A DNA stretch of 21,468 bases from a virus. The notes under the pieces were generated by a model. It worked only from the letters and a program-made list of their open reading frames with translations, did not search any database and was not told the DNA's origin. Positions 295-21,270 of this stretch are shown in pieces. Position 1 is the stretch's first letter. The number at the start of each line of letters is the position of its first letter. A program made the position numbers and the translations under genes. The stretch spans positions 1-21,468 of IMG/VR virus record IMGVR_UViG_3300028840_000832. One strand, written 5' to 3'.

Positions 295-3200
295 TTATAG
301 CTCAATCTCAAAACTAATTTTACGCGAAATTCCCAGCTCAAACGCGACATTTCGGCTAATTTCAACCTCAAATAGAGGATTTTGGCTAATCTCACAAGTA
401 TATGCTGGTGCTTGCGAAACCGCTACCTCAAACCCGACCCACTGGCTCATCCCCAGATTTACCCGCAAAAAGTCAGGTAACGCTGTCTGGTAATAAGTTC
501 CGGGAGCCGGGCCGAACAAACCAAGGTTCCCAGAAGGTGGAGCAGCGAGTTTATTCTCCAAATACTCCACATCAGGGGTGTTCCCGGTAAGTGTGATACT
601 ACCGATACCAATTTCCGCCAGTTTGTTCTGGAACGCCTCGGTGTCAGTATCAAGCCCGGTCAAGCTCAGGCTCCCGGCCTCTGCTTCTGAGATTTTGTGC
701 TCAGTAGCATCGGTCTGACCCGCAAACCCGGAAATATTCAGGTTTTCGGGTGCGCCGATAAATCTTGTATATACGTCACCAGAATAATAAGTATCGGGGT
801 TCAACCCAGTCAGAGCCATCGTACCCAACGGAGTATCGCTGACCTTACCTTCGAGGTACTCAATACTGGGTACGTTACCTGTAATTGTCAGACTACCAAT
901 ACCTGCGTCAGACAACTTGTTCTCAGTGTAGTTGGTAGCAGTTGACATCCCGGTCAGATCAATCGTACCGACAGGGATGGCACTGGCATTAATAATCAGG
1001 ACTTGAACTTCAGGGGTAAGCCCTGCAAAAGTCAAAGCTCCCGCTGGAATCTCTGAACTCTGCGGGTCGAATGCAGCCGCCTGTGGAGCAAGGCCAGCAA
1101 TAGCTAAAGCACCGGGGGTAAATTCTATTTCTATTGAATTCGCATTCACACTTACTGCCAAACCAGTAATTGTTAGCGCGCCAGTTACAAGATTTGACCA
1201 CTGTTTATCAGATACATCAGTTTGTGGTGTAAGCTCTGAAAGGGCTAAAGCCCCGGTAGGAATTTCTGATTTCTGTACGTCAGCCTGAGCACCGGGGGTT
1301 AATCCAGTGAGCGTCAGCGATCCGAGAGGAATCTGGGCTTCTGATCCTGTTTGTTCTGGAAAATCTACGAAGAACAGCGGGTCATAGGCCATCACCCCAC
1401 TGGCTCCACCTATATAATTCTCCGCTCCCAAGATACCGAGAACACGAATCTGAGCATCGGAATATCCCTGCTGTATATCTCTCGCTACATAAGTAGGCCA
1501 AGCGAGATTTGAATTTGCGTCGCCCGATATTGCGCTGGTACTACCATCGGTATCAATAGCGTAGACGTTATTATTAGGGTGGTTAAGAAAAGAAAGTCCG
1601 TATTCATTATCTGCATCATATGTTTTAGTTCTAGTAACACTTCTTTCCGTACCGCTCTGAACCAAAGTTGTTTTACTTCGCGAGATGTCAAAGTACGCAA
1701 TGAAGTTTGTATTTTGCCAAGTCGCTGAATTCTCACGACGCGCAGTAATTGTTGTATTAACTGCTGAAGCTTTTGGAAACGCTGATGCAAAAATATTAAA
1801 CTTTGGTAAAAGTGGAAGCTGCGTACCAATATCCCCGTATTGGGATGATGCTTTGTTGAACGTAATAAGACCTTGAGAATCCGCAGTTGGCCCATTAACC
1901 AGCGTCATGTCGTGGCCTTTGCCAGACAAATCCTCAACCGTAGTACCGTCAATATGATCTGGAGTAAACAGGTACAGAGCTTCAAGCTCACCGTTAAACA
2001 CACGGTTATTTATGTTCACCTCGTGAGTGGTTTGTAAACCTGCATTGTAGTGAGCTGCTACCTGTTGATCTGTTAGTGGGTAGTCATAAATAGCACCATG
2101 ACACATTGCTCCCTGAAACCCTTCAGCAGAAGTGGAAGCACCGAACCTTGTCTCTGTCGTAGAGAGGTTTAAAGCTCCACCAAAAGACCCCGTTGTTTTG
2201 TTGTTATTAACATAGAGTGCAACGTTACCAGACCCATCAACAGTACCAACAACGTGCATCCATTGACCCAACGTAATAGCTTGTGCAGCTACGTTTGAAG
2301 CAGTGTTACTAAGGTTAATATTACCAGAAGTGCTGTTACGAATAATTGTAAAATTACCATTACTAACATTATTCGCACCAACATAAGCGATGCGGCTCCA
2401 AGCACCAGACCACGAATCAACACGACACCACAACTCTATTGAGCCACCGCTGGTATTGAAATAAGTTACGCTGGAACTTGTATCTTCAAGCCTTTCACTT
2501 CCGCCGCCCTTGTATTTAGATTGGTAAAGCTGAAACGTAGGGCCACCCACATTAACCCAAGAAGGCCCAACGTAAGACCCAGTAACACTATCGTTATATT
2601 CAAGAGCTTTTTCTTGGGACTCAGCTATAGCTTCGAGGCCGCCATACCGTTCAGTCATAGGCCAGTAACGGTGGGGCGTATCTTCCATAAGTGCGCGATA
2701 ATAGTGAATATCCGACCTTGCTTGTACATACCATGCACCAGCAAAATAATGAGAACGGATTTCACTAACGCCAAGTTCACGGGGGTAGTATGCTATGTGA
2801 GAACAATAAGTATTACAGTTTTCACCGCTCTCTCCATTAATAACCAACCTGTCTGCAATAGTTACTGAGTAACTAGCAGTAGACCTTTGTACTCCATTTA
2901 GATAAAGTTTTTGTGAATTACCTGTATTAGTAAGAACAAGGTGATACCACTTGTTTAAATCCATCCCAGTAACTTGGCCTGCTTCAGAGCCAAGTCGGGA
3001 AATCTGAATACCTGTATTATTATGAGCGATAATACCGAGCATACTGCTGGTAGTAGCTGTACCCGCGTATATTACGCGTCCATTATCACTAAAGCTAGCA
3101 AACCTAATCCAACATTCGATAGTACCCGCAGTAGTAAACTCATCAAACCCACCACCTGTTGCAAGAGCATAATCAGTTGTACTTCCGTAATACACACTGT

Positions 3201-5553
3201 TTTGCCGAGGAGCATCCCAAGAAGCATCGTTGTTAACAGGACTATTGATATAACTAATATTTCCGAGATTGCCTGTAAAATCAGCTACGTCATTAACAGA
3301 CTGCATACGGTAATAGCAGGTTGGGTTCGAAGCTATTACTGCGTCATCATAAGGTGTAAGTGCGCCATCTTTAACTGGAATTTTTCCAGTAAGAGCTAAG
3401 TTACCAACAGGAGTTATAGAGTTCAGACCTTGGTGCTTAAAATGCGCTAAGACCTGAGTAGCTGTTAGTTCGTAATCATAAACAGCTACTTCATCGATTT
3501 CCCCATCCCAATGCCTTGCATTGTTAGGGGCCATACCGATGTTCTCTCCGTTTGTCGGAGTACCCAAGGTATAAGTTGAATTAGCAAAAACTGCTGTACT
3601 GTTAGTGTTTTTCAGGTCGCCATTAACATATAACTTAATTGTGTTGTTAGCGTAATCTAAAACCCCCACAACATGGTAGGTAACGCCAGCAGTTATTGCT
3701 GTTGTCCAAGATGTAGATTGAAAAGCATCTGCACTCCCTGAACGACCGCCAGCGAATATCAGCCCTGAGCTGTTAACCGCAATACCAAACCCTGTCGCTA
3801 TACTATTAACTTCAGAGTACCAAATATCCTCTGATTCAGTAGTTGGAACTACATCAGAAGATACCCACGCTTCGACTGTTACGACAGACTTACCATTTAT
3901 TAAATCTCCAATAGGTGTGTTACCTAAAGTGCCGATGTCAACGCGACCACTAGACCCGTTAAAATTAACAGATTTTCCTGTTGAAACTAACCCAGCCTGA
4001 TCTAAAGTATATGTTCCGTTGTATGTTCCTTCGTTCGCGCCAACGTAGTCGAGTGCCTCAGTACCAGAAGACTCATCCAGTCTCCACCAAGCTATAGGAG
4101 TATCCTGAGCTATAGACTGCGCGTATTCATCTGCTATACCAAGATCATAATGTAGTTTTGCCGAACCTTGTGTAAATGCAAAATCGTAGATAGCCACATC
4201 GCTGATGGAGCCGTCAAAATGGTCGCTCGGACTCGCCCCATCGTTCTCATTTGAAATGAAAGTTTTTGCAACAATAGTAAGGTCAGTAGTAAGCGTGTTA
4301 TTAACTACTTCTACGCCATCTACCCAAATCAATTGGGTATTGGCAGTATCGTCAATGGCGTAAACGATATGATGCCAATTACCGTCATTGAATCCATTCG
4401 CAACAGAGTGGTTACTCGTACCTGCAACAGTATAAAAAATGCGACCATTACCGCCAGCCGTACCATCTACACCAAGGCGAACAGCATCACCATCAGCCGC
4501 TGTATTCGATCCGAAGATAACGTTTTCGTTAGAATTAGTATCTGTGTTTTTAGTGGTTTTAAACCACGCTTCGATGGTTATCGCTGATGCAGCAGCAATA
4601 TCTGTAGCGACACCAGCGGGAAGTGTTGAATACTTGGTATTGTCTAAAACTACGCCGTTAGTGAGACCTTCAGGTGAATCTGATGCAGCAGCCGGAGCTG
4701 CGCTCCAAGTACCCTCATAAAAGTTATTAGAATTATCCGGGCAAGTTGTAGTTGTGTCGTCACATTTATAATGGGCAATTGGGTTTTTACGGACTACTTC
4801 TGCGGAATAGATACTATCCTTCTGCCTTAGTAAAGTCTTGTACGGATCAGCACTGATTTCAGCAATTTCTGCATCAGTTAAACCACGGTTGAACTTGAAG
4901 ACTGCATAAATCTTACCGTTCCAATAACCGTTGTCCTGCCCCTTACCGATCATCACAGGGGTGGCTTCGGTAGGTATTGTGCCAGACACACTACCAGTAT
5001 TATCTACTGCCCCGTCGAGATAAGTTCTCGCAGAAAGCGACCCGTTCTCATACCTACCAGCAACAACGTGTACTTGTCCGTCACCGCCGTAAGATTGAGT
5101 TAAAGAAGCTTTATTTGCCCAAGACCCCCAAGCTCCACCAAAACCACCAAAACCTGTGGTCGATGAATTTGAGCCTTCGGGAGAAAGCATGAAGTTGACT
5201 TGAGAAGTGTATTTATCCTGACAGATTGCGCCGTTGTCAGCAGCGAAACCATTATGCAAGACAATAGCAATTACCGTGAGGCCGTTTGAATTATGCAGCC
5301 CTGAGTAATTTGCAATTTCAAGCCAGTCTGAACCACTAAAACCAGAAACGTGGACACCGCCGATAGAATCTTCGGCGAGAGTTGTGCCCGTACCGTTTTC
5401 AGTAAGAGTTACATCGGGTTTAGATAAGTTGGCCCCTACCTTCTTATCGTCAGTAGGACAAAACGCTGCACAAATGTCGCTATAATATGTACCGTTTGGG
5501 TCAAGCTCTAACCTAATCCCCGATGGCTTTTTAATACCCGGAGGTAAAGCCAT
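295..5553 (-). CDS. Giant multi-LamG virion protein with C-terminal repeats (probable tail fibre/adhesin)
   Basis: A 1752-residue protein and by far the largest gene here. About six concanavalin-like (LamG) modules follow one another at roughly residues 45-235, 255-470, 480-705, 735-940, 945-1165 and a degenerate one at 1185-1395. Each shows parts of the usual pattern: a hydrophobic 'AhYrld' start, 'siEaWv', 'W.HvV....n....LYvNG', and a closing 'G.i.dvAiYdyeLt..qv..hY'. Residues 1406-1690 are about twelve copies of a 24-residue unit with core P-x-G-x-L-x-L-x-G. The last 48 residues hold a shorter repeat around FEVEIS. There is no signal peptide, as expected for a virion protein. LamG folds usually bind glycans or proteins, so a host-surface binding role is inferred. 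The start ATG lies 6 bases after the preceding stop with only a weak ribosome site, suggesting coupled translation. Base composition is AT-richer than in the packaging genes. Confidence 0.85.
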   Translation of the reverse strand: MALPPGIKKPSGIRLELDPNGTYYSDICAAFCPTDDKKVGANLSKPDVTLTENGTGTTLAEDSIGGVHVSGFSGSDWLEIANYSGLHNSNGLTVIAIVLHNGFAADNGAICQDKYTSQVNFMLSPEGSNSSTTGFGGFGGAWGSWANKASLTQSYGGDGQVHVVAGRYENGSLSARTYLDGAVDNTGSVSGTIPTEATPVMIGKGQDNGYWNGKIYAVFKFNRGLTDAEIAEISADPYKTLLRQKDSIYSAEVVRKNPIAHYKCDDTTTTCPDNSNNFYEGTWSAAPAAASDSPEGLTNGVVLDNTKYSTLPAGVATDIAAASAITIEAWFKTTKNTDTNSNENVIFGSNTAADGDAVRLGVDGTAGGNGRIFYTVAGTSNHSVANGFNDGNWHHIVYAIDDTANTQLIWVDGVEVVNNTLTTDLTIVAKTFISNENDGASPSDHFDGSISDVAIYDFAFTQGSAKLHYDLGIADEYAQSIAQDTPIAWWRLDESSGTEALDYVGANEGTYNGTYTLDQAGLVSTGKSVNFNGSSGRVDIGTLGNTPIGDLINGKSVVTVEAWVSSDVVPTTESEDIWYSEVNSIATGFGIAVNSSGLIFAGGRSGSADAFQSTSWTTAITAGVTYHVVGVLDYANNTIKLYVNGDLKNTNSTAVFANSTYTLGTPTNGENIGMAPNNARHWDGEIDEVAVYDYELTATQVLAHFKHQGLNSITPVGNLALTGKIPVKDGALTPYDDAVIASNPTCYYRMQSVNDVADFTGNLGNISYINSPVNNDASWDAPRQNSVYYGSTTDYALATGGGFDEFTTAGTIECWIRFASFSDNGRVIYAGTATTSSMLGIIAHNNTGIQISRLGSEAGQVTGMDLNKWYHLVLTNTGNSQKLYLNGVQRSTASYSVTIADRLVINGESGENCNTYCSHIAYYPRELGVSEIRSHYFAGAWYVQARSDIHYYRALMEDTPHRYWPMTERYGGLEAIAESQEKALEYNDSVTGSYVGPSWVNVGGPTFQLYQSKYKGGGSERLEDTSSSVTYFNTSGGSIELWCRVDSWSGAWSRIAYVGANNVSNGNFTIIRNSTSGNINLSNTASNVAAQAITLGQWMHVVGTVDGSGNVALYVNNNKTTGSFGGALNLSTTETRFGASTSAEGFQGAMCHGAIYDYPLTDQQVAAHYNAGLQTTHEVNINNRVFNGELEALYLFTPDHIDGTTVEDLSGKGHDMTLVNGPTADSQGLITFNKASSQYGDIGTQLPLLPKFNIFASAFPKASAVNTTITARRENSATWQNTNFIAYFDISRSKTTLVQSGTERSVTRTKTYDADNEYGLSFLNHPNNNVYAIDTDGSTSAISGDANSNLAWPTYVARDIQQGYSDAQIRVLGILGAENYIGGASGVMAYDPLFFVDFPEQTGSEAQIPLGSLTLTGLTPGAQADVQKSEIPTGALALSELTPQTDVSDKQWSNLVTGALTITGLAVSVNANSIEIEFTPGALAIAGLAPQAAAFDPQSSEIPAGALTFAGLTPEVQVLIINASAIPVGTIDLTGMSTATNYTENKLSDAGIGSLTITGNVPSIEYLEGKVSDTPLGTMALTGLNPDTYYSGDVYTRFIGAPENLNISGFAGQTDATEHKISEAEAGSLSLTGLDTDTEAFQNKLAEIGIGSITLTGNTPDVEYLENKLAAPPSGNLGLFGPAPGTYYQTALPDFLRVNLGMSQWVGFEVAVSQAPAYTCEISQNPLFEVEISRNVAFELGISRKISFEIEL
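298..441 (-). repeat. C-terminal short repeats around the core F-E-V-x-I-S
   Basis: The last 48 residues of the giant protein (1705-1752) contain successive units GFEVAVSQ, YTCEISQN, FEVEISRN, FELGISRK and FEIEL. Spacing is about 10-12 residues, and the gene stops in the middle of a unit. This is a different repeat from the 24-residue tract that precedes it. Confidence 0.75.
484..1338 (-). repeat. Tandem ~24-residue protein repeats (P-x-G-x-L-x-L-x-G), about 12 units
   Basis: Residues 1406-1690 of the giant protein are built of units that open with I/T-P-x-G, run through alternating hydrophobic positions (SLTLTGL, ALALSEL, ALTITGL, ALAIAGL, ALTFAGL, SLTITGN, TMALTGL, SLSLTGL, SITLTGN) and close with a polar stretch that in later units reads ENKLSD, EGKVSD or ENKLAA. 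Period varies from 23 to 26 residues. The alternation suggests one beta strand plus a turn per unit, so a beta-solenoid or stacked stalk is inferred. One isolated unit, ITPVGNLALTG, also occurs between LamG modules 3 and 4 (residues 713-723). Confidence 0.85.
1369..5421 (-). repeat. Array of about six divergent LamG-like modules within the giant protein
   Basis: The coding region for residues 45-1395 repeats the same fold pattern at intervals of about 200-225 codons. Recognisable copies of the central motif are WHHIVYAIDD at 393-402, YHVVGVLDY at 626-634, WYHLVLTNTG at 869-878 and WMHVVGTVDG at 1098-1107. Matching module ends are DVAIYDF at 452-458, EVAVYDYEL at 688-696, HIAYYPREL at 919-927 and GAIYDYPLT at 1153-1161. 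The copies are too divergent at DNA level to be recent duplications. The sixth copy keeps the start (LEALYLF, DLSGKGHD) but has a poor centre. Confidence 0.75.
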
Positions 5554-10107: not shown

Positions 10108-11773
10108 CCGGTGTCAGTGTGATGTTTCTAGTCATATTGTTATCTTCAAGCGTGAAGAAATCGTTATATTCCACATAATCGTTGGAAATTATCTGGAGTA
10201 TTCTGTGTTGGTTTGCCGCGTAAGTGTACGTGTCGATGCTGTTTTTGGTAGCAGAAGTTTCCTGCTCCACACCATTGATCTCAGTAACGTTGTCAAACTC
10301 ACCCGCAGTATCAGTGCTGTACAGCCTCCACTCGTAATTTGGAGACGGCAATGGGCTGACGTTGAAAGACAACGTACGCTGGTTTGCTACAACCGCAACT
10401 GTACCAGTTCCGTCATTCTTCACAGATGGGATGGTAGCACCTGACGCGATGTTAATCGTTAATTTCTGGCCGGCACTTACGTTTACGAGGATGGCCGCAT
10501 TGGTAGTGTCATCCTCGGTAATTGGGTCGCCGGTTGTACCAGTAGCATAGCCAGACAGAATATTGTTCCAAGTAACGGTGGTACTGGATGTGATGTTGCC
10601 CAAATCAACAGCATGGTTTGTGCCATCTGAGATAAATGTATTGCCAGTTACCAAACTCAAATCATCGACCACAATGGAGGTCTGTGAAGTGCTGTTCGAG
10701 ATCAAGTTGCCGGTAATGGTTGCTCCGCCCTGAGTAATCTGGGCACAGCGACGAAATGATCCGTTTGTAATATCGACAGTTTTAGTTGCACCCTTGCTGA
10801 AAACAAAGGTGTCCATGTCGATAAAGTTACACTGATCGAGGGCCACATCGCACTGATCTGTCATCAAGAAACGGCCTTTAGACGCTGTAGTAGTGTCCAA
10901 AGTCTGGATCGTTATACCAGTCCACTCGATGTTAGAGCCTGTGTTTAAACACTCAATCAGGTTGAAGTTGGCTGTAACTTTTGGCGTCCATTGAATAAAG
11001 ACGGTTTTGTTGGAGTCTCTGAAATCTACAGCATTGGTCGCTGTACCCAGAGACATGCGGCCTTTCCAGAGATAACCACCAGAAGTCTTCGACAACAAAC
11101 CCCAACGGTTGTAACCGTTTGTTGCATCGTTGTAGTCGTTTACAGTAGCGAACCCATCAAAAGTACAGTACCCATTGGTGATGTCGCCATGCTCGAAAAT
11201 AGCAGAACAACGGCCATAACGTATGGCATCGACGTTGTGCACCTCACCTTTCGACGAACCGGTCGTAACATACACTGCCGCACCGATATATTGTTCTGTG
11301 CCGTTAGGAGTGCCTGCGGTGTAATCAGCGGTTACAGAGGTGTTTACAGCATGGTTAACCCAACCACCGTATGGGTATGGTGCTTTATCAACGCCACCAA
11401 CTGTCCATACGTCGAAATCTGAAGTAGAACTACCAACAACAAGCATAAAGCCGTCGTTGGCATAAGTCTCGATGTTGGAGGCCACCATGTAGTTCTGCCA
11501 GACAAGATAAGCCCCATCTGTGCCATGACCGCCTGTGCCGGCCCCATTATTAAACGCGAGAGAACCTACACCAACGTCTTTGGTACAGTCCTGAGTAACA
11601 GAATACAAACCTTGGATGAATGGGTAGTCAGGGTCTTCATAAGCTGGCGCACCCTGAGTGTTAAAAGCCTCAGAACCGCCAGACAGAGTGACAGAGCCAG
11701 TCATCTCAACCCAGCCGGAAGCTGCGTCTAAAGACAGGTCAGTCAAATCTTCAGTGTAACTCGGCGCGGCCAC
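10094..11773 (-). CDS. Beta-rich tail/virion protein, probable beta helix (559 aa)
   Basis: The start is GTG at 11773-11771, supported by GGAGG 6 bases upstream; it overlaps the end of the CxxCxxCC gene by 23 bases. The N-terminal 240 residues are rich in Gly, Thr, Asn and aromatics. Residues 240-455 show repeated short strands (NIEWTGITIQ, DVALDQCNFIDMD, KTVDITNGSF, ATITGNLISN, LVTGNTFISDG). The segment AAILVNVSAGQKLTINIASG with ATIPSVKNDGTGTVAVV resembles a motif common in large phage tail proteins. Residues 456-555 look like an Ig-like sandwich ending YVEYNDFFTLEDN and ITLTPDDND. There is no catalytic signature. It probably belongs to the tail or its adsorption apparatus. Confidence 0.78.
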   Translation of the reverse strand: MAAPSYTEDLTDLSLDAASGWVEMTGSVTLSGGSEAFNTQGAPAYEDPDYPFIQGLYSVTQDCTKDVGVGSLAFNNGAGTGGHGTDGAYLVWQNYMVASNIETYANDGFMLVVGSSTSDFDVWTVGGVDKAPYPYGGWVNHAVNTSVTADYTAGTPNGTEQYIGAAVYVTTGSSKGEVHNVDAIRYGRCSAIFEHGDITNGYCTFDGFATVNDYNDATNGYNRWGLLSKTSGGYLWKGRMSLGTATNAVDFRDSNKTVFIQWTPKVTANFNLIECLNTGSNIEWTGITIQTLDTTTASKGRFLMTDQCDVALDQCNFIDMDTFVFSKGATKTVDITNGSFRRCAQITQGGATITGNLISNSTSQTSIVVDDLSLVTGNTFISDGTNHAVDLGNITSSTTVTWNNILSGYATGTTGDPITEDDTTNAAILVNVSAGQKLTINIASGATIPSVKNDGTGTVAVVANQRTLSFNVSPLPSPNYEWRLYSTDTAGEFDNVTEINGVEQETSATKNSIDTYTYAANQHRILQIISNDYVEYNDFFTLEDNNMTRNITLTPDDND

Positions 11774-12170
11774 GTATAGCCTCCATCACATGGTTCAGTG
11801 AGTGGTTCTTGTGCAACTGGATATTCGTCTCATCGCCCCGATACAGGACAACAGAAAACCCCTCTTTTTTGAACGATTCAATTTGCTTGGCGGCTAATTG
11901 CGTCATTTTACGACGTTGATCAACTCTGCCAGACATAACATCTTTACTGGTTCTACTGAAAATTACGCCACACTTATCTGGGCGTAAATCTTCGCCAACC
12001 TTTTCCATTTGTGCCCAAACGCAAAGAAATTCCTTACATTCTTTTGGGCGTGTTTCGTAAATTGTGCAGCCTACTCCTTCCTCGCATTTACTGCATGGTT
12101 CCCCGATCTTACTGGGTATTTCATGCAATTCGAGGTCTCGGCAGCAAGCTGTACAGGTTCCGCAATCCAT
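11751..12170 (-). CDS. CxxCxxCC (YkgJ-type) zinc/iron-binding cysteine-cluster protein
   Basis: The 139-residue protein begins MDCGTCTACCRDLEL, giving the CxxCxxCC signature at Cys3, 6, 9 and 10. More cysteines follow at 26, 29, 35, 45 and 50 in the pattern PCSKCEEGVGCTIYETRP-KECKEFLC. This matches the family called YkgJ or zinc/iron-chelating CxxCxxCC proteins, whose biochemical role is poorly known. Residues 85-139 are a separate, more basic helical tail. The ATG overlaps the stop of the connector gene (TAATG), and the following gene begins 23 bases before this one stops, so it is fully embedded in the morphogenesis operon. Whether it is a virion part or a helper is unknown. Confidence 0.85.
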   Translation of the reverse strand: MDCGTCTACCRDLELHEIPSKIGEPCSKCEEGVGCTIYETRPKECKEFLCVWAQMEKVGEDLRPDKCGVIFSRTSKDVMSGRVDQRRKMTQLAAKQIESFKKEGFSVVLYRGDETNIQLHKNHSLNHVMEAIRGRAELH

Positions 12171-12877
12171 TAAATTCCGCCGTACATGACAACAGGTGCG
12201 CGACGACGCTTCTTGCGGAAAAACGATAACGCTGAATCAAGGGCGTCCCGCCAAAGTATCAGGCGTTTATTCATAGCCACTTCATTGTACGTTTCTGCGT
12301 CATCTTTCGCGTACGCCATAGCGCACGCTTTTTGTACCAGAGACCGTCTGAATCTTGGAGAAATCTCCAGATCAACGCCGGACTCTACTTCCTCCAAAGG
12401 CTCGCGATACACAGACAGCGTCAATGCGTCGTTTGCGGTTGGAATCGGATACAGTCGTCCTTTGTCGGCTTCCATATCGGTAATAATGTACCGGGGTGGG
12501 CCTTTTGAAGTCTGCCAGTCACCGTTCAACACACGAGAGCCATAATCAGAAGAATCGGCACTCCCGTGCTCAAATTCTTGCAGAGTAATGACCTCAATAG
12601 GCAGGCCGGTAGAATTCAGGTAAACCTTACGCAGTTCAACAATGCGGTCATCGATGGCGACCCAAGGGTCGTCTGCGGTAACAGCTACAGAGTTGAAGTA
12701 CGTAAAATCAGGAAGACACAGGGTTTCGCGAGCGAATTCCCTCTGTGCTTCATCAAGGTAGTGGTAAAGTTCTTCGTTTGACCAGAGAGAGTCACTGGAA
12801 TCACCAGAACCCGGGAGTTCAGGGTCATCCAGTTCCAATCGGATCAAGTTGATAATATCACTCGTTTCCAGAGCCAT
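12170..12877 (-). CDS. Probable head-tail connector/adaptor protein (235 aa)
   Basis: The protein opens MALETSDIINLIRLELDD and continues WSNEELYHYLDEAQREFARET, a helical N-terminus typical of phage adaptor proteins that dock under the portal. A beta-rich centre follows (AIDDRIVELRKVYL, GPPRYIITDMEADKGRLYPIP, TLSVYREPLEEV). It then ends with a long C-terminal helix (RRSLVQKACAMAYAKDDAET) and a basic end (FFRKKRRRAP). Length and layout fit the connector proteins found downstream of coat genes in podovirus-like phages. The role is inferred from this pattern and from position. AGGA lies 8 bases before the ATG. The start overlaps the previous gene by 20 bases. Confidence 0.75.
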   Translation of the reverse strand: MALETSDIINLIRLELDDPELPGSGDSSDSLWSNEELYHYLDEAQREFARETLCLPDFTYFNSVAVTADDPWVAIDDRIVELRKVYLNSTGLPIEVITLQEFEHGSADSSDYGSRVLNGDWQTSKGPPRYIITDMEADKGRLYPIPTANDALTLSVYREPLEEVESGVDLEISPRFRRSLVQKACAMAYAKDDAETYNEVAMNKRLILWRDALDSALSFFRKKRRRAPVVMYGGI

Positions 12878-15746: not shown

Positions 15747-16649
15747 TTAGAAAATGTCTCCGCGAAGACGTTTCAGGGAACTTTCTGGCAAAGAGTCCAG
15801 ATCGGCCTCGGTCAACTTGGAGCCATCCGGCAGGTCGCCCATGCCGCCCGAGTTGCCCGGATCACCCACACCGTCGAGATCAGGTGGCTGCTTGTCGGCA
15901 GCATCCAGTTTCTTCTTCAGATTTTTCTTCTTCGCTTCAGGGTCTTCACCCTTATTGGTATTCTCAGCGGTGTGCTTGACCTGTGGGTCAGGAACCAAAG
16001 TTTTGACCGCCTTGATCAGAGCCTGAGTCGGGGTGTAGCGTTTTGTCGCCAAGAATCCCAGACGCAGTTCCTGAATTTCGGCAACCAATTGCTTGTCGTA
16101 GTCGTCGTGGTCAGGGTTCAACTGGTCATAATTTTCTTCGATTGCGTCGAGAGTCAGGTCCAGACGTACCTGCTCCTGCGCTTCAGAGACAGACTTCTGG
16201 TCATTCTCACGCATTTCCAGACGCATCTGCTCACGCTCAGCAGCACGCTGCTTGGAACGCAATTCAGCGGCCTTGTCGTCGTCACCATCCTTGAGTGCCT
16301 GCATGATCTGTTTGTCCAGATTGATGATTTCCTGCTCGGCATTATCAACCTGTTCCTGACGTTTGGCATCGGCCTCTTCCTTCTTACCGGCGTTCTCCAG
16401 CTCCTGAATACGAGCTTCAAGTTCGCGGTTACGAGCGGCCACAGAGTCATAACGTGATTTCGGGAGCATGGGCTCCTTCTTTACGTCGTCGTCTTCTTCT
16501 TCTGGAGCTGCTCCTTCAGCGCCTTTGTCATCTTCTGGAGCTGCTCCTTTCGGGTCAACGTCTTTATCAACTTCCTTGCCTTCCGGCAGGTTCGACAAGT
16601 CATCGCCGCGATCTTCTAAGTCTTTGTTTTCATCTTCAACTGGTGGCAT
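15747..16649 (-). CDS. Head scaffolding protein (300 aa)
   Basis: A highly charged, low-complexity helical protein between portal and capsid genes, the usual place for scaffold. Residues 1-58 are very acidic with two GAAPE copies. MLPKSRYDSVAARNRELEAR at 61-80 leads into a coiled coil (about 68-160, rich in Glu, Arg and Gln). Residues 163-220 are a second helical domain. Residues 230-300 are Lys-rich then Gly/Asp-rich, ending SLPESSLKRLRGDIF. Scaffold proteins of P22-like phages assemble the procapsid with the coat protein through a basic C-terminal helix and are later released. The Lys-rich stretch KKKNLKKKLDAADK near 240-253 could serve that contact. AGGAG lies 7 bases before the ATG, and the start overlaps the portal end by 14 bases. 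Confidence 0.82.
   Translation of the reverse strand: MPPVEDENKDLEDRGDDLSNLPEGKEVDKDVDPKGAAPEDDKGAEGAAPEEEDDDVKKEPMLPKSRYDSVAARNRELEARIQELENAGKKEEADAKRQEQVDNAEQEIINLDKQIMQALKDGDDDKAAELRSKQRAAEREQMRLEMRENDQKSVSEAQEQVRLDLTLDAIEENYDQLNPDHDDYDKQLVAEIQELRLGFLATKRYTPTQALIKAVKTLVPDPQVKHTAENTNKGEDPEAKKKNLKKKLDAADKQPPDLDGVGDPGNSGGMGDLPDGSKLTEADLDSLPESSLKRLRGDIF
16498..16549 (-). repeat. Short in-frame tandem duplication in the scaffold gene
   Basis: A perfect 19-base direct repeat occurs at 16498-16516 and 16531-16549, offset by 33 bases. In the protein it gives two GAAPE copies 11 residues apart (GAAPEDDKGAE then GAAPEEEDDDV) in the acidic N-terminal part. Confidence 0.85.
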
Positions 16650-18750
16650 CAGATTTCTCCTGTTTTTGCTTCTGTTGATTCTGCTGGCCTGCTTGGAGTC
16701 CAGCGATTACTTTTGCGCGCTCAATTTCACCCTTCTGATCAGTTTCGCGCCTTCTCTGATCGAGTTCATCGTATTTGTAGCGTAATTCTTTATCGAACTT
16801 GTCCTGATCACGCTGAGCGTCCATCATGTACTTCTCATTTTCCGAAATCATATTACGAAGTTCAGCTACTTCGCCACTACCATCATTGCCTTTCTCGCCC
16901 TCTGCAATCTCCTGCGCACGCATGAGCGACAGAACTGCGTTGGCCTCGATCTGTTTGGTCTCGGCATCCATCTTCTTGGCTTCAAGACGTTTGATTTCAA
17001 GTTCAAGCTGTTCCATCTCAAGCTGTGCTTCAGAAGGCGTGCCGGCCACTTCCTGAGCAATCTCACTCTTACGCAAGAGCGAAGAGTTCTCGATAAGGAT
17101 GTGATCTGGAATATTAACACCCATTTCACGCAGCTCTTTGGCCTGCTGGAACTGAGTCTCTTCAAAGTTGTTACGGGCCGGTACTGTGGTCACAACCACT
17201 TCGTACTCACCAACCTGTAAGTTGTTCACGATCTCACCGGCTGGGGTCATCTGGTTGATTACAATCTCTTCAGACTGGGCAACCGGGTCATTACCGGTGA
17301 TCCGGTAAATACGTTCTTCAGTGAAAAAGCCCTGCCACAGATCAAGTACGCGCTCGGCCAACAGACCGCGTGTTCTCTGTAAGTTCTCCAACGGAGTAGC
17401 AAAGTTGGAAGAACTCATAGCCTGCTTGGTCAAAATGGCCTTGGCCGCTACGTCTTCTCTATCAAACCCACGGAGTGAGTCCGACGCCATGCTAATTTCC
17501 TTGAGGTCTTCGGCTGCTTGGAAACCGATACGGTCAAGACCGGTCGGAATCTGATTTGGCTGAATTTTGATGAGCGGGTCAGTTCCTTTTTTCCTTGCAA
17601 CAACAAGTCCTGTTTCTGCTCCACGAGCTTCGAGCTCCTCTTCAGTCATATTCGCCAACTGGCCTTCTTCCATCTGCCAACCGCCATTGGCCGTAGAGTT
17701 AATCACATGCAATTCCTGTGATTTCGTCTTGTTGTACAACTCCTGCGGATCGATCATATTCTCGACCAGACCGATAGTCTTACCGTGACGGAAAAATGGG
17801 AAATAGGGAACAGTGGTGAAGTTTTTGTAAGGACTTACCTTGTTGTGCGCCAGAACATCGTCAATAGTCGAAGTCCAGTGAATTTCTTCAAAAGTACGCC
17901 TTACTGTGCCGAGACCATAGGTATCAATGGCAAGTTTAATCTTTTCGCGATCCCAATCTTCTGGAATCACTCTTGTTTCGCCGGTTACGACATCAACAAA
18001 ATGGGGTCGGATAGACTTCGTGCGGTGCTGACGTTCTAACACCCTGAATCGCCGCCTGTGAGTTGCTTGGGGGTCGAACTCATCACCAACTCTACGGTCG
18101 CCGCCACCAAAACTCCCGTGTCGTTTGTCCACAAAGTCATATCCGATCTCGTAACGTGATTGAACTTTTCCTTCCAACTGACCTGCGACGTCCTTACCAT
18201 ACATTCTCTGAATGTCGTCGTAGCTCAACCACTTGGTTACCCAAACCTCTTTCCACTCCGCAGGGTCATATTCTTCCGCATCCGGATCAATGATTACGTT
18301 GTAGGGGTTGAGTAACTTTATCTTTATGTCACCAAAAATGTTTTGGTTAAAATCAAGACGTACATCGTAGAAACCACGAGAAGTGATAATTCCATCTGTG
18401 AATACGTCTGATTCGACTTGGTCAAGTTTATTCGTCGCCGCCGTGTGCAACCAAAGCTTGTCCATAATTTTCGCAGTATCCTCAGAACCATTCGCTTTCG
18501 GCCTGTAACTTATGTCACTTCGATTAGAAAGCTGCTGGCCCTGAATGACTGCAACTGAGGGTAAAGTTTTATTAAGCGTGAGTGCCGGCCTACGTTGACG
18601 ACGTAGTTTGGCGCGATCATTTGGGTCCCACTGGTCGCCACAATAGAACGAGTCGCATCGCTCAGCTTTCGATAGAAAGTTGATATGTCCATTGTCTCTG
18701 GCATAGATATAACGTTCATACTGTTCTCTTACAATGCTGTCATTGCTCAT
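16636..18750 (-). CDS. Portal protein, P22-like
   Basis: A 704-residue protein, close in size to the 725-residue P22 portal. Near the N-terminus it has ERCDSFYCGDQWDPNDRAKL then RRPALTLNKTLPSVAVIQGQ (residues 30-71). Then come LLNPYNVIIDPDAEEYDPAEW (146-166) and RHGKTIGLVENMIDPQELYN (321-340), all hallmarks of the P22 portal family. Residues 573-690 form a long Glu/Lys/Gln-rich coiled coil, comparable to the C-terminal barrel helices of P22. Twelve copies normally form the ring through which DNA enters the head. The reading frame extends upstream to 18810, but I chose the ATG at 18750 because it forms an ATGA overlap with the large terminase stop and begins with the conserved MSNDSIVREQYERY. 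Confidence 0.9.
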   Translation of the reverse strand: MSNDSIVREQYERYIYARDNGHINFLSKAERCDSFYCGDQWDPNDRAKLRRQRRPALTLNKTLPSVAVIQGQQLSNRSDISYRPKANGSEDTAKIMDKLWLHTAATNKLDQVESDVFTDGIITSRGFYDVRLDFNQNIFGDIKIKLLNPYNVIIDPDAEEYDPAEWKEVWVTKWLSYDDIQRMYGKDVAGQLEGKVQSRYEIGYDFVDKRHGSFGGGDRRVGDEFDPQATHRRRFRVLERQHRTKSIRPHFVDVVTGETRVIPEDWDREKIKLAIDTYGLGTVRRTFEEIHWTSTIDDVLAHNKVSPYKNFTTVPYFPFFRHGKTIGLVENMIDPQELYNKTKSQELHVINSTANGGWQMEEGQLANMTEEELEARGAETGLVVARKKGTDPLIKIQPNQIPTGLDRIGFQAAEDLKEISMASDSLRGFDREDVAAKAILTKQAMSSSNFATPLENLQRTRGLLAERVLDLWQGFFTEERIYRITGNDPVAQSEEIVINQMTPAGEIVNNLQVGEYEVVVTTVPARNNFEETQFQQAKELREMGVNIPDHILIENSSLLRKSEIAQEVAGTPSEAQLEMEQLELEIKRLEAKKMDAETKQIEANAVLSLMRAQEIAEGEKGNDGSGEVAELRNMISENEKYMMDAQRDQDKFDKELRYKYDELDQRRRETDQKGEIERAKVIAGLQAGQQNQQKQKQEKSDATS

Positions 18751-20786
18751 GCTGACATAGCTCCACCTGTGCGAAGGCCAAGCTGTTGTCGACGCAACTT
18801 GTCCTTCCAAGAATCAATTTTTGGTTCAGGTCTTTTCGGTTGTGGAGGTGCCACGCCTTCGACCATGCGGCATAACCACGACAAAGCATCGACGATGTCA
18901 TCGTGCAACCCATTAGGGAATCTTAGCAGTTCTGCAAGAAAAGTCTCGACCCAAGGCTGATCTTGCGGTAACAATATCTTACCATGCTGTGCCATACCCT
19001 GTGCAACCCGGGCACGGGCCACCTTATCAGTTATTGGTTTAAGGTCTTCGTTAAAGGAGGGGTAAAAGCCTCCGTTCGCCTTAGAATTGTCGTCAAACAA
19101 TCTTTCGAGTGAAGGCATGATGGACATCTGGATTTGACCACGTTCCAGACCCATTTGCTGGAGATTGTGACGGTAAAGCAGTGAGGTGTCGAAGATAAGT
19201 TTGGCGAGCTCATTGGTCTTTACCCTGATCATATCGTAAATAATTAAAAATCCGTTCTCGTCCAGCGCGCCTACCAGCCCTACAGTCCAGTCATTCTGCT
19301 GTTTCTGGCCGATAGCCAAATCCCACGCAATATACACATGATGATTCGACAGTCGGGGCCGGACAGGCATCATCCTGAAGCTGTCCTTGGTGAAAATATC
19401 ACCATCGTCCGGAACTGGATTCTGCTGCATGAGCGCAGACCAATGGCGTTTAGCCATTGTCCGCCGCATTTTTCTTAAGCTAAGTTCGTCAAAGCGTGCA
19501 GGATGTAGAGCATCTCCCTGATGACGTAGAAAACGACAACTATCGTTATCACGCGAATGAACGATCTTGCCAGAGACCGGATCGAAATATTCCTCCTGCT
19601 CAGCCAACGCCGGCAAGTTAATAATTTCCCACTGCTCAACTTCATCTTTCTTCGCCTCAATACGCGCTAACGTTTTCTCGTCGGCACCCGCCTCGCGGGC
19701 TTCTTGCAATTCTTCTTCGATTTCACGAAGGTCCTCCGTCATTTGGTGGATAAGTTTTCCTGATAGATCATCATCGTGCCATCGAGTCTGGATAACCAGT
19801 ATTCCGCCGCCCGGAGCAAGACGAGTACGGGCCGTAGAGCCATACCAGTCCCAATTGCGCTCCCTGATAGTCTCAGAGTCAGCCTCATCCGCATCTTTAA
19901 CAGGGTCATCAATAATAAGAACATGAGCACCCTTACCTGTAATAGAGCCGCCCACACCCGCCGGGACGTAGCCGCCTCCTTTTGTCGTCAGCCACCCCTC
20001 AGTTGCCTGAGCGTCGGGATGCATTAATGTTTTAGGAAAAACGCCCTGATACGCAGGCGTCTTGATCATCTCCTTGATCTTACGCGAGAACCCCATAGGC
20101 AGGCTCACACCGTAAGACGCAGCGATAATTTCATGGTGCGGAGCGTGGCCAAGATGCCATGCTGGGAAGTTTTTACTCGCTATCTCAGATTTTCCGTGCC
20201 TCGGCGGCACAAATATCATCAATCTTGGTGCTTTCTTGGCAATGACGTCAGCAGAAAATTTCTCAAGCTTGGTACAGATCAAATTATGTACCCAACCGGC
20301 CTCGTACTCAGGAAAAGTCCTCAAAATAAAATAAATAAGCTTACGCTTCGCCAATTGACGATTGGCTAACTCTCTCTGAACGACATTGGCACTGGCGGTC
20401 TTGCCCGGAACGGGACGGAGGGTGTTTTTCGCTCTTTTTTGCTGTAAAACTGTGTTTGTGTTGTCCGCAGAGTGAATATCTTCGCGCTTGTCCGCGCTGA
20501 TGGCCCAGTTCTTCTTGTCCTTGGCCTTTTTCACATTGGCTTTTTGTGCGTTTTTAACGCTGTCGGCTCTTTCTTTATTCGTCTTGATGACATTCTGTCG
20601 CTTGCGCTCAAGCCTTTTGTACTCATCTTTCACAGGGTGGTTGGCTTGGGCACATGGTCGGCAACGAATCACACGGTTTGTCGTGTAGGCATCGTGCACT
20701 TTCAGCTCGCCACATGCGGCACAGAACCTACGCGCCTTCAATTGGTGCGCGGTAAGCCCCCAATAAGTCTTTTTAGGTGTCGGCAT
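18747..20786 (-). CDS. terL: Terminase large subunit (TerL) with N-terminal zinc-finger-like extension
   Basis: A 679-residue packaging motor. Walker A is PPRHGKSE (194-201), Walker B is LIIDD (290-294), and TRWHDDDLSG at 334-343 follows the ATPase core. The nuclease half has IAWDLA (Asp489) and NGLHDDIVDALSW (Asp629/630), all typical of Terminase_6-type TerL. Unusually, the ATPase is preceded by about 150 extra residues. These hold CAAC at 22-25 and CRPC at 42-45, a four-cysteine zinc-finger-like pattern, then a very basic Lys/Asn/Ala-rich linker. A charged helical insertion sits at 351-386. The frame stays open to 21014, but those codons lie over the small terminase gene. ATG at 20786 gives MPTPKKTYWG and a 14-base overlap with terS. 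The ribosome site is weak. Confidence 0.92.
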   Translation of the reverse strand: MPTPKKTYWGLTAHQLKARRFCAACGELKVHDAYTTNRVIRCRPCAQANHPVKDEYKRLERKRQNVIKTNKERADSVKNAQKANVKKAKDKKNWAISADKREDIHSADNTNTVLQQKRAKNTLRPVPGKTASANVVQRELANRQLAKRKLIYFILRTFPEYEAGWVHNLICTKLEKFSADVIAKKAPRLMIFVPPRHGKSEIASKNFPAWHLGHAPHHEIIAASYGVSLPMGFSRKIKEMIKTPAYQGVFPKTLMHPDAQATEGWLTTKGGGYVPAGVGGSITGKGAHVLIIDDPVKDADEADSETIRERNWDWYGSTARTRLAPGGGILVIQTRWHDDDLSGKLIHQMTEDLREIEEELQEAREAGADEKTLARIEAKKDEVEQWEIINLPALAEQEEYFDPVSGKIVHSRDNDSCRFLRHQGDALHPARFDELSLRKMRRTMAKRHWSALMQQNPVPDDGDIFTKDSFRMMPVRPRLSNHHVYIAWDLAIGQKQQNDWTVGLVGALDENGFLIIYDMIRVKTNELAKLIFDTSLLYRHNLQQMGLERGQIQMSIMPSLERLFDDNSKANGGFYPSFNEDLKPITDKVARARVAQGMAQHGKILLPQDQPWVETFLAELLRFPNGLHDDIVDALSWLCRMVEGVAPPQPKRPEPKIDSWKDKLRRQQLGLRTGGAMSA

Positions 20787-21270
20787 CAGGCGTCGGCGGC
20801 TCCACGGTCTCGAAATCTCCCTCAATAACCTGAGCACCGGCCATATCGAGCAAATCTTCCGTGCTCGACTCTTCCAACTGGCGTAACTGCTCTTGTTTCT
20901 CGTTCGATAAAGTGATTTTCTTCTCTTCCGGCGCGTAAAGCCCGTGTAAACGGCCCAACTCCCGCCATCCATTGATCTGGGTGTTGGGCTCTTCCAAGTG
21001 CTTGGCGTCCTCAATCGCTTCCATGATTCCCTGAGTCACCTGCTCTCTCGAAACTGCCCATTTTTTCTTTTCTTCTTGCTGCAAATGCAGGGCGTATCGC
21101 TTCATATCCGGAAATTCACGCAACATCGCCTTCACAGAAGCGTGTTCGCCGTAGCCCGCGCGCTTTTTAGCCTGTGGTTCGCTCAACCCGGCAAATAATG
21201 ACTGGATCAACACCCTCTGTTTCTCAGAAATGTCGAAATCGTCATCCAAAATCATCGATAAACCATTCAT
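20773..21270 (-). CDS. terS: Terminase small subunit (TerS)
   Basis: A 165-residue protein immediately before TerL. Residues 14-60 (SEKQRVLIQSLFAGLSEPQA, KKRAGYGEHASVKAML) resemble the N-terminal helix-turn-helix of small terminases, which recognises the packaging site. A helical oligomerisation part follows. The segment NGWRELGRLHGLYAPEEKKI (100-119) is a frequent small-terminase motif. The acidic C-terminus ends TPDADT. Two Met codons, at 21270 and 21255, could start it. No clear ribosome site favours either, so the first is given. Confidence 0.85.
   Translation of the reverse strand: MNGLSMILDDDFDISEKQRVLIQSLFAGLSEPQAKKRAGYGEHASVKAMLREFPDMKRYALHLQQEEKKKWAVSREQVTQGIMEAIEDAKHLEEPNTQINGWRELGRLHGLYAPEEKKITLSNEKQEQLRQLEESSTEDLLDMAGAQVIEGDFETVEPPTPDADT

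Follow-up and report, generated by a model that had tools for sequence, protein, structure and literature searches.

The stretch of viral DNA analysed here ("the window", 21,468 nucleotides, positions 1 to 21,468 of IMG/VR record IMGVR_UViG_3300028840_000832) carries a terL gene for a large terminase of 679 amino acids (positions 18747..20786, minus strand) between two genes that fit the same assignment. The protein combines a P-loop ATPase bearing a Walker A motif with a C-terminal RNase H-like nuclease, as expected of a large terminase; it matches Terminase_6N and Terminase_6C (PF03237, 5.4e-11 from residue 191; PF17289, 7e-08) as well as phrog_38 (2.9e-107), and its AlphaFold2 model matches the solved structures of T4 gp17, HK97 TerL, D6E TerL, and the P22 nuclease. 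Immediately upstream, with an overlap of 14 nt, lies a terS-like gene (20773..21270, minus strand) for a small terminase of 165 amino acids with an acidic C-terminal tail (weak match to phrog_51 "terminase small subunit", E 0.00068), while a P22-like portal gene downstream (16636..18750, minus strand; PF16510, E 1.4e-79) overlaps the terL stop codon in an ATGA. Together with an SU10-type adaptor protein (12170-12877, minus strand; PF24175, 4.1e-16), this portal suggests a podovirus-like head-tail. The structural gene cluster also includes a small cysteine-rich protein (MDCGTCTACC...; 11751-12170, minus strand; phrog_9155 of unknown function, no match in the Pfam scan), and a 1752-residue protein elsewhere in the window (295-5553, minus strand) contains five Laminin_G_3/concanavalin-like domains (E 5.8e-68) and short C-terminal repeats resembling GSLTLTGLTP.

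An N-terminal extension of the large terminase

The ATPase-nuclease core of the window TerL, as delimited by Pfam, alignment, and structure prediction, comprises residues 133-679 (18750..20390, minus strand), and its Walker A motif PPRHGKS, invariant in our TerL alignment, is found at residues 194-200 (20187..20207, minus strand). Ahead of it lies a predicted zinc module with a treble-clef-like four-cysteine (C4) site (residues 13-50; 20637..20750, minus strand), formed by a first knuckle CAAC (residues 22-25; 20712..20723, minus strand) and a second knuckle CRPC (residues 42-45; 20652..20663, minus strand). Module and core are joined by a basic and largely helical linker (residues 51-132; 20391..20636, minus strand), with 23 K/R against 10 D/E over residues 51-133. 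The translation therefore bears out the arrangement of knuckles, basic linker, and late Walker A motif that a preliminary description of this DNA had reported. Within the core, a charged helical insertion at residues ~345-385 (19632-19754) is shared in the TerL alignment only with L001, the closest relative of the window.

The preliminary description had allowed for a true start near residue 130-150. Short homologues of this kind do exist, yet the window gene offers no such start: There is no alternative ATG among codons 1-190, and the in-frame GTG/TTG codons (16, 30, 39, 52, 85, 145, 155, 169, and 189) lack a convincing ribosome site. The overlap between the terL ATG and the end of terS recurs in L001, where it spans 11 nt. 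When the first 136 residues of the window TerL were shuffled, a CxxC-x(8-40)-CxxC pattern arose in 47 of 200,000 cases.

Structure prediction, proposed earlier as a check, was run with AlphaFold2 on an input of 44 aligned TerLs and returned a confident treble-clef-like fold with a long helix behind it (mean pLDDT 89 for the full-length model, 85-95 for the module block). The model places strands at residues 19-21 and 28-30, a helix at 43-48 that starts at the second CxxC, a long helix at 54-104, and the core from residue 133. A treble clef runs from knuckle to hairpin to helix, with the second CxxC on the helix, and the modelled module follows this order, from which we infer that the fold is treble-clef-like and that its four cysteines would coordinate a single zinc ion. 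Folded alone, the module reached a pLDDT of 76-87 (mean 77), below its confidence in the full-length model. A Foldseek search of the isolated module against the PDB gave no significant match (best E 1.4), with many treble-clef-type zinc modules among the non-significant top neighbours (Stc1, FCS, FYVE, FmdE), and a PDB profile search with the module found generic zinc ribbons only.

Distribution of the module and selection acting on it

Scans of IMG/VR and GTDB yielded about 160 non-truncated TerL relatives, for which we refer to those with at least 39% core identity as the near group. A C4 module precedes the core in 71 of 93 near TerLs, whereas none of the 69 below that identity has one (Fisher p 2e-26, uncorrected for relatedness), and on a tree of 58 representatives its distribution requires 7 changes compared with 17.4 for shuffled labels. 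Alignment with homologues, as suggested in the preliminary description, thus confirms that extension and cysteines are conserved in relatives. Where the genome hits come from named isolates, these belong to the Gammaproteobacteria (Vreelandella, Oceanisphaera, Allochromatium, Shewanella, and Motiliproteus), and the module also occurs in the cultured phages Aeromonas phiA008 and Pseudomonas KPP25, so that the clade bearing it spans gammaproteobacterial prophages, uncultured phages, and these two isolates.

Several members of the near group deviate from this layout. L002 and L004 have no module, and their TerL starts near residue 130, which shows that the core can stand alone. Six others (L016, L018, L020, L022, L030, and L040) carry low-complexity basic tails rich in S/T/A/P/K in place of the module, with a net charge of +6 to +20 where computed; sub-clades with such a tail or without any module indicate that the function of the module is dispensable or replaceable. 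At the opposite extreme, L007, L027, and L100 have a tandem pair of C4 modules ahead of the core. Long basic tails of the same low-complexity composition were also seen instead of a zinc module at the TerL N-termini of L019, L026, and L183, and in a further locus (L186:2788-5274) an intein-like insert (Pfam LAGLIDADG_3, E 2e-08) splits terL just behind the Walker A motif.

Selection was assessed from 12 valid close pairs, since pooled dN/dS mixes distant, saturated pairs. In every one of these pairs, dN was lower for the module than for the linker (sign test p 0.0005); compared with the core, the dN of the module was similar or somewhat higher. Between the window and L001, identity falls from 82% in the core to 38% in the linker and 30% in the module, yet the four cysteines and their 16-residue spacing are intact; the chance that all four cysteines would be among the 9 identical of 30 module positions is 0.005. 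The metal site thus appears to be held while the surface of the module changes, and these sequence comparisons indicate purifying selection on the module across a large clade. Taken together, one clade of large terminases has evolved, and retains under selection, a C4 module on a variable linker before a self-sufficient ATPase-nuclease core.

Relationship to HNH and endonuclease VII proteins

The knuckles had been likened to those of phage HNH-type endonucleases, and this resemblance is supported at the level of the module family: of 22 members compared, 9 hit phrog_2255, annotated as "HNH endonuclease", with a best E of 2.8e-06. For the window itself, the profile search fell short, as residues 1-62 of its TerL alone gave nothing above threshold in Pfam or PHROG scans; the module matches weakly to an unnamed PHROG (E 0.016) and to phrog_2340 (0.09), and tblastn of the extension against phages returned chance hits only. 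The family matches cover the N-terminal accessory zinc part of HNH/endonuclease VII families and not their catalytic part, and no HNH family match to the catalytic beta-beta-alpha metal motif rose above threshold in window residues 1-190. The accessory modules of these families (PHROGs 2255, 1035, 2340, and 2633) share with the TerL module the CxxC-x(n)-CxxC pattern, a basic residue before it, and P/F positions between the knuckles. However, they are basic and precede a catalytic HNH domain, whereas the TerL module stands before an ATPase and has an average charge close to neutral.

Searching the DNA of the relatives with a TerL module profile also brought up genes in which a like module (E 4.5e-05 to about 0.4) stands ahead of an HNH/endonuclease VII-like domain; taken as full proteins, they match phrog_1035 with E values down to 6e-25. 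Where gene order was examined (e.g., L045, L063, and L090), it is HNH-terS-terL with the HNH gene directly upstream of terS. The preliminary description had mentioned endonuclease genes beside terL in some phages. Among module-bearing loci with 2.3 kb or more of upstream sequence, a gene-profile search located an HNH gene upstream of terS-terL in 20 of 45; module-free loci had none, whether near (0 of 16) or far (0 of 57). Descent confounds this association, as the HNH loci belong mostly to one clade. No HNH-type gene was found in the 5.4 kb upstream of terS in L001, and the record of the window ends ~200 bp beyond terS, which places genes further upstream outside its view. In L025, L067, and L094, the TerL has a module and the neighbouring HNH protein has none. 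Non-cysteine identity between TerL and HNH modules is 10.8% within a genome and 10.6% between genomes, so that no recent copying is visible.

A possible docking arm for packaging initiation

As the function of the module we favour, with a probability of about 0.5, a tethered docking arm that would help TerL dock at packaging initiation. With one zinc bound by its cysteines, the treble-clef-like module would tether TerL onto the TerS-DNA complex, or onto another packaging partner, and hold it there until the motor transfers to the portal; its role would be docking and not catalysis. Besides the distribution, selection, and predicted fold described above, several observations favour this reading: The first 23 residues of P22 TerL bind TerS (review PMC9611059), relatives retain TerS whether or not they have the module, and the average module is near-neutral. 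Mean net charge over 70 module-bearing TerLs is -0.3 for the module and -0.2 for the linker, compared with about +4.6 for neighbouring HNH modules, which makes a protein partner a better candidate for the shared function than general DNA binding. The acidic-tailed terS is present in relatives of both kinds, which argues that the module is no substitute for TerS. Counting against the docking reading, inspection of the TerS tail by eye revealed no change visibly tracking the module, and some sub-clades lack or replace the module.

The strongest competitor, though an unlikely one, sees in the module a zinc finger for DNA binding that reads or grips the cos or pac site, with or without the help of the basic linker. 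The net charges in the window (+4 for the module, +14 for the linker) suit DNA binding and docking equally well, and the basic tails of sub-clades without a zinc module and the basic HNH modules point towards DNA binding. On the other hand, the average TerL module and linker are not basic, both are acidic in most TerLs that have an HNH neighbour, and TerS as the usual reader of the site is present. Protein docking and DNA binding are therefore two live options that charge separates in part, and an added DNA contact may exist in the subclade of the window, where module and linker are basic. A device for packaging initiation is plausible, and the earlier suggestion of one that recognises the packaging site itself is possible.

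The HNH neighbours allow for a broader but doubtful idea in which one kind of zinc module would serve as an interchangeable docking tag on TerL, the neighbouring HNH nuclease, or both, bringing them to the TerS-DNA platform at the start of packaging. We similarly expect little from an oligomerisation or regulatory arm by which TerL would control, in cis, its ring assembly or its nuclease: The long helix at 54-104 and the tandem modules would suit it, but the linker, whose charge also differs widely among relatives, ranges from 15 to 81 residues and evolves fast in a manner more in keeping with a loose tether than with a fixed contact in cis. It is very unlikely that the extension is the leftover of a fused HNH endonuclease, as the preliminary description had proposed. 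The shared knuckle type and the HNH genes upstream of module-bearing loci speak for this origin, but the extensions match the accessory part alone, complete HNH genes coexist with the module in the same genomes without special likeness between the two, the module is under selection, L001 shows no such gene in the upstream sequence covered, and shared descent confounds the association. Finally, a misassigned start codon or chance cysteines, for which the extension-free relatives beginning near residue 130 could be cited, are refuted for practical purposes by the lack of an alternative start in the window, the terS overlap in L001, and a selected module with cysteines conserved in about 70 relatives.

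How TerS hands over the packaging site to TerL is poorly understood because their complex is usually transient. A separable, conserved module located at the terminus through which P22 TerL binds TerS offers a handle for testing this step, since the cultured phages KPP25 and phiA008 have it and some close relatives naturally lack it or carry something else instead. To our knowledge, no such module has been described for the solved TerLs T4 gp17, HK97, and D6E or the P22 nuclease, and we found no description of a zinc module in TerL in the open-access literature, to which our search was confined. The C4 module is thus an addition to the known TerL architecture, with a mechanism proposed by inference, and adds to a well-known motor rather than defining a new system. 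The TerLs of phiA008 and KPP25 (Terminase_6N/6C, PHROG 38) share the core of the window protein and carry an N-terminal C4 module as well, apparently unremarked.

Zinc sites in a packaging terminase are also known from herpesviruses, whose pUL28/pUL56 carries zinc fingers (PMC9611059), but these sit in the small subunit and the predicted one of the window in TerL, a likeness that claims no sequence relationship. In HK97, where the Walker A lysine of TerL lies at residue 60 (PMC9410871), the HNH protein gp74 is a packaging partner (PMC9410871; Kala et al. 2014 as cited in PMC9611059). Many relatives of the window likewise have an HNH gene beside the terminase genes, although as a gene separate from terL, and L001 shows none upstream. 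In P22, where the N-terminus of TerL and the C-terminal tail of TerS are the parts concerned (PMC9611059), the end of TerL is the same and the partner, TerS, is likely the same as in the window, but P22 uses a short stretch of 23 residues where the window TerL has a predicted zinc module.
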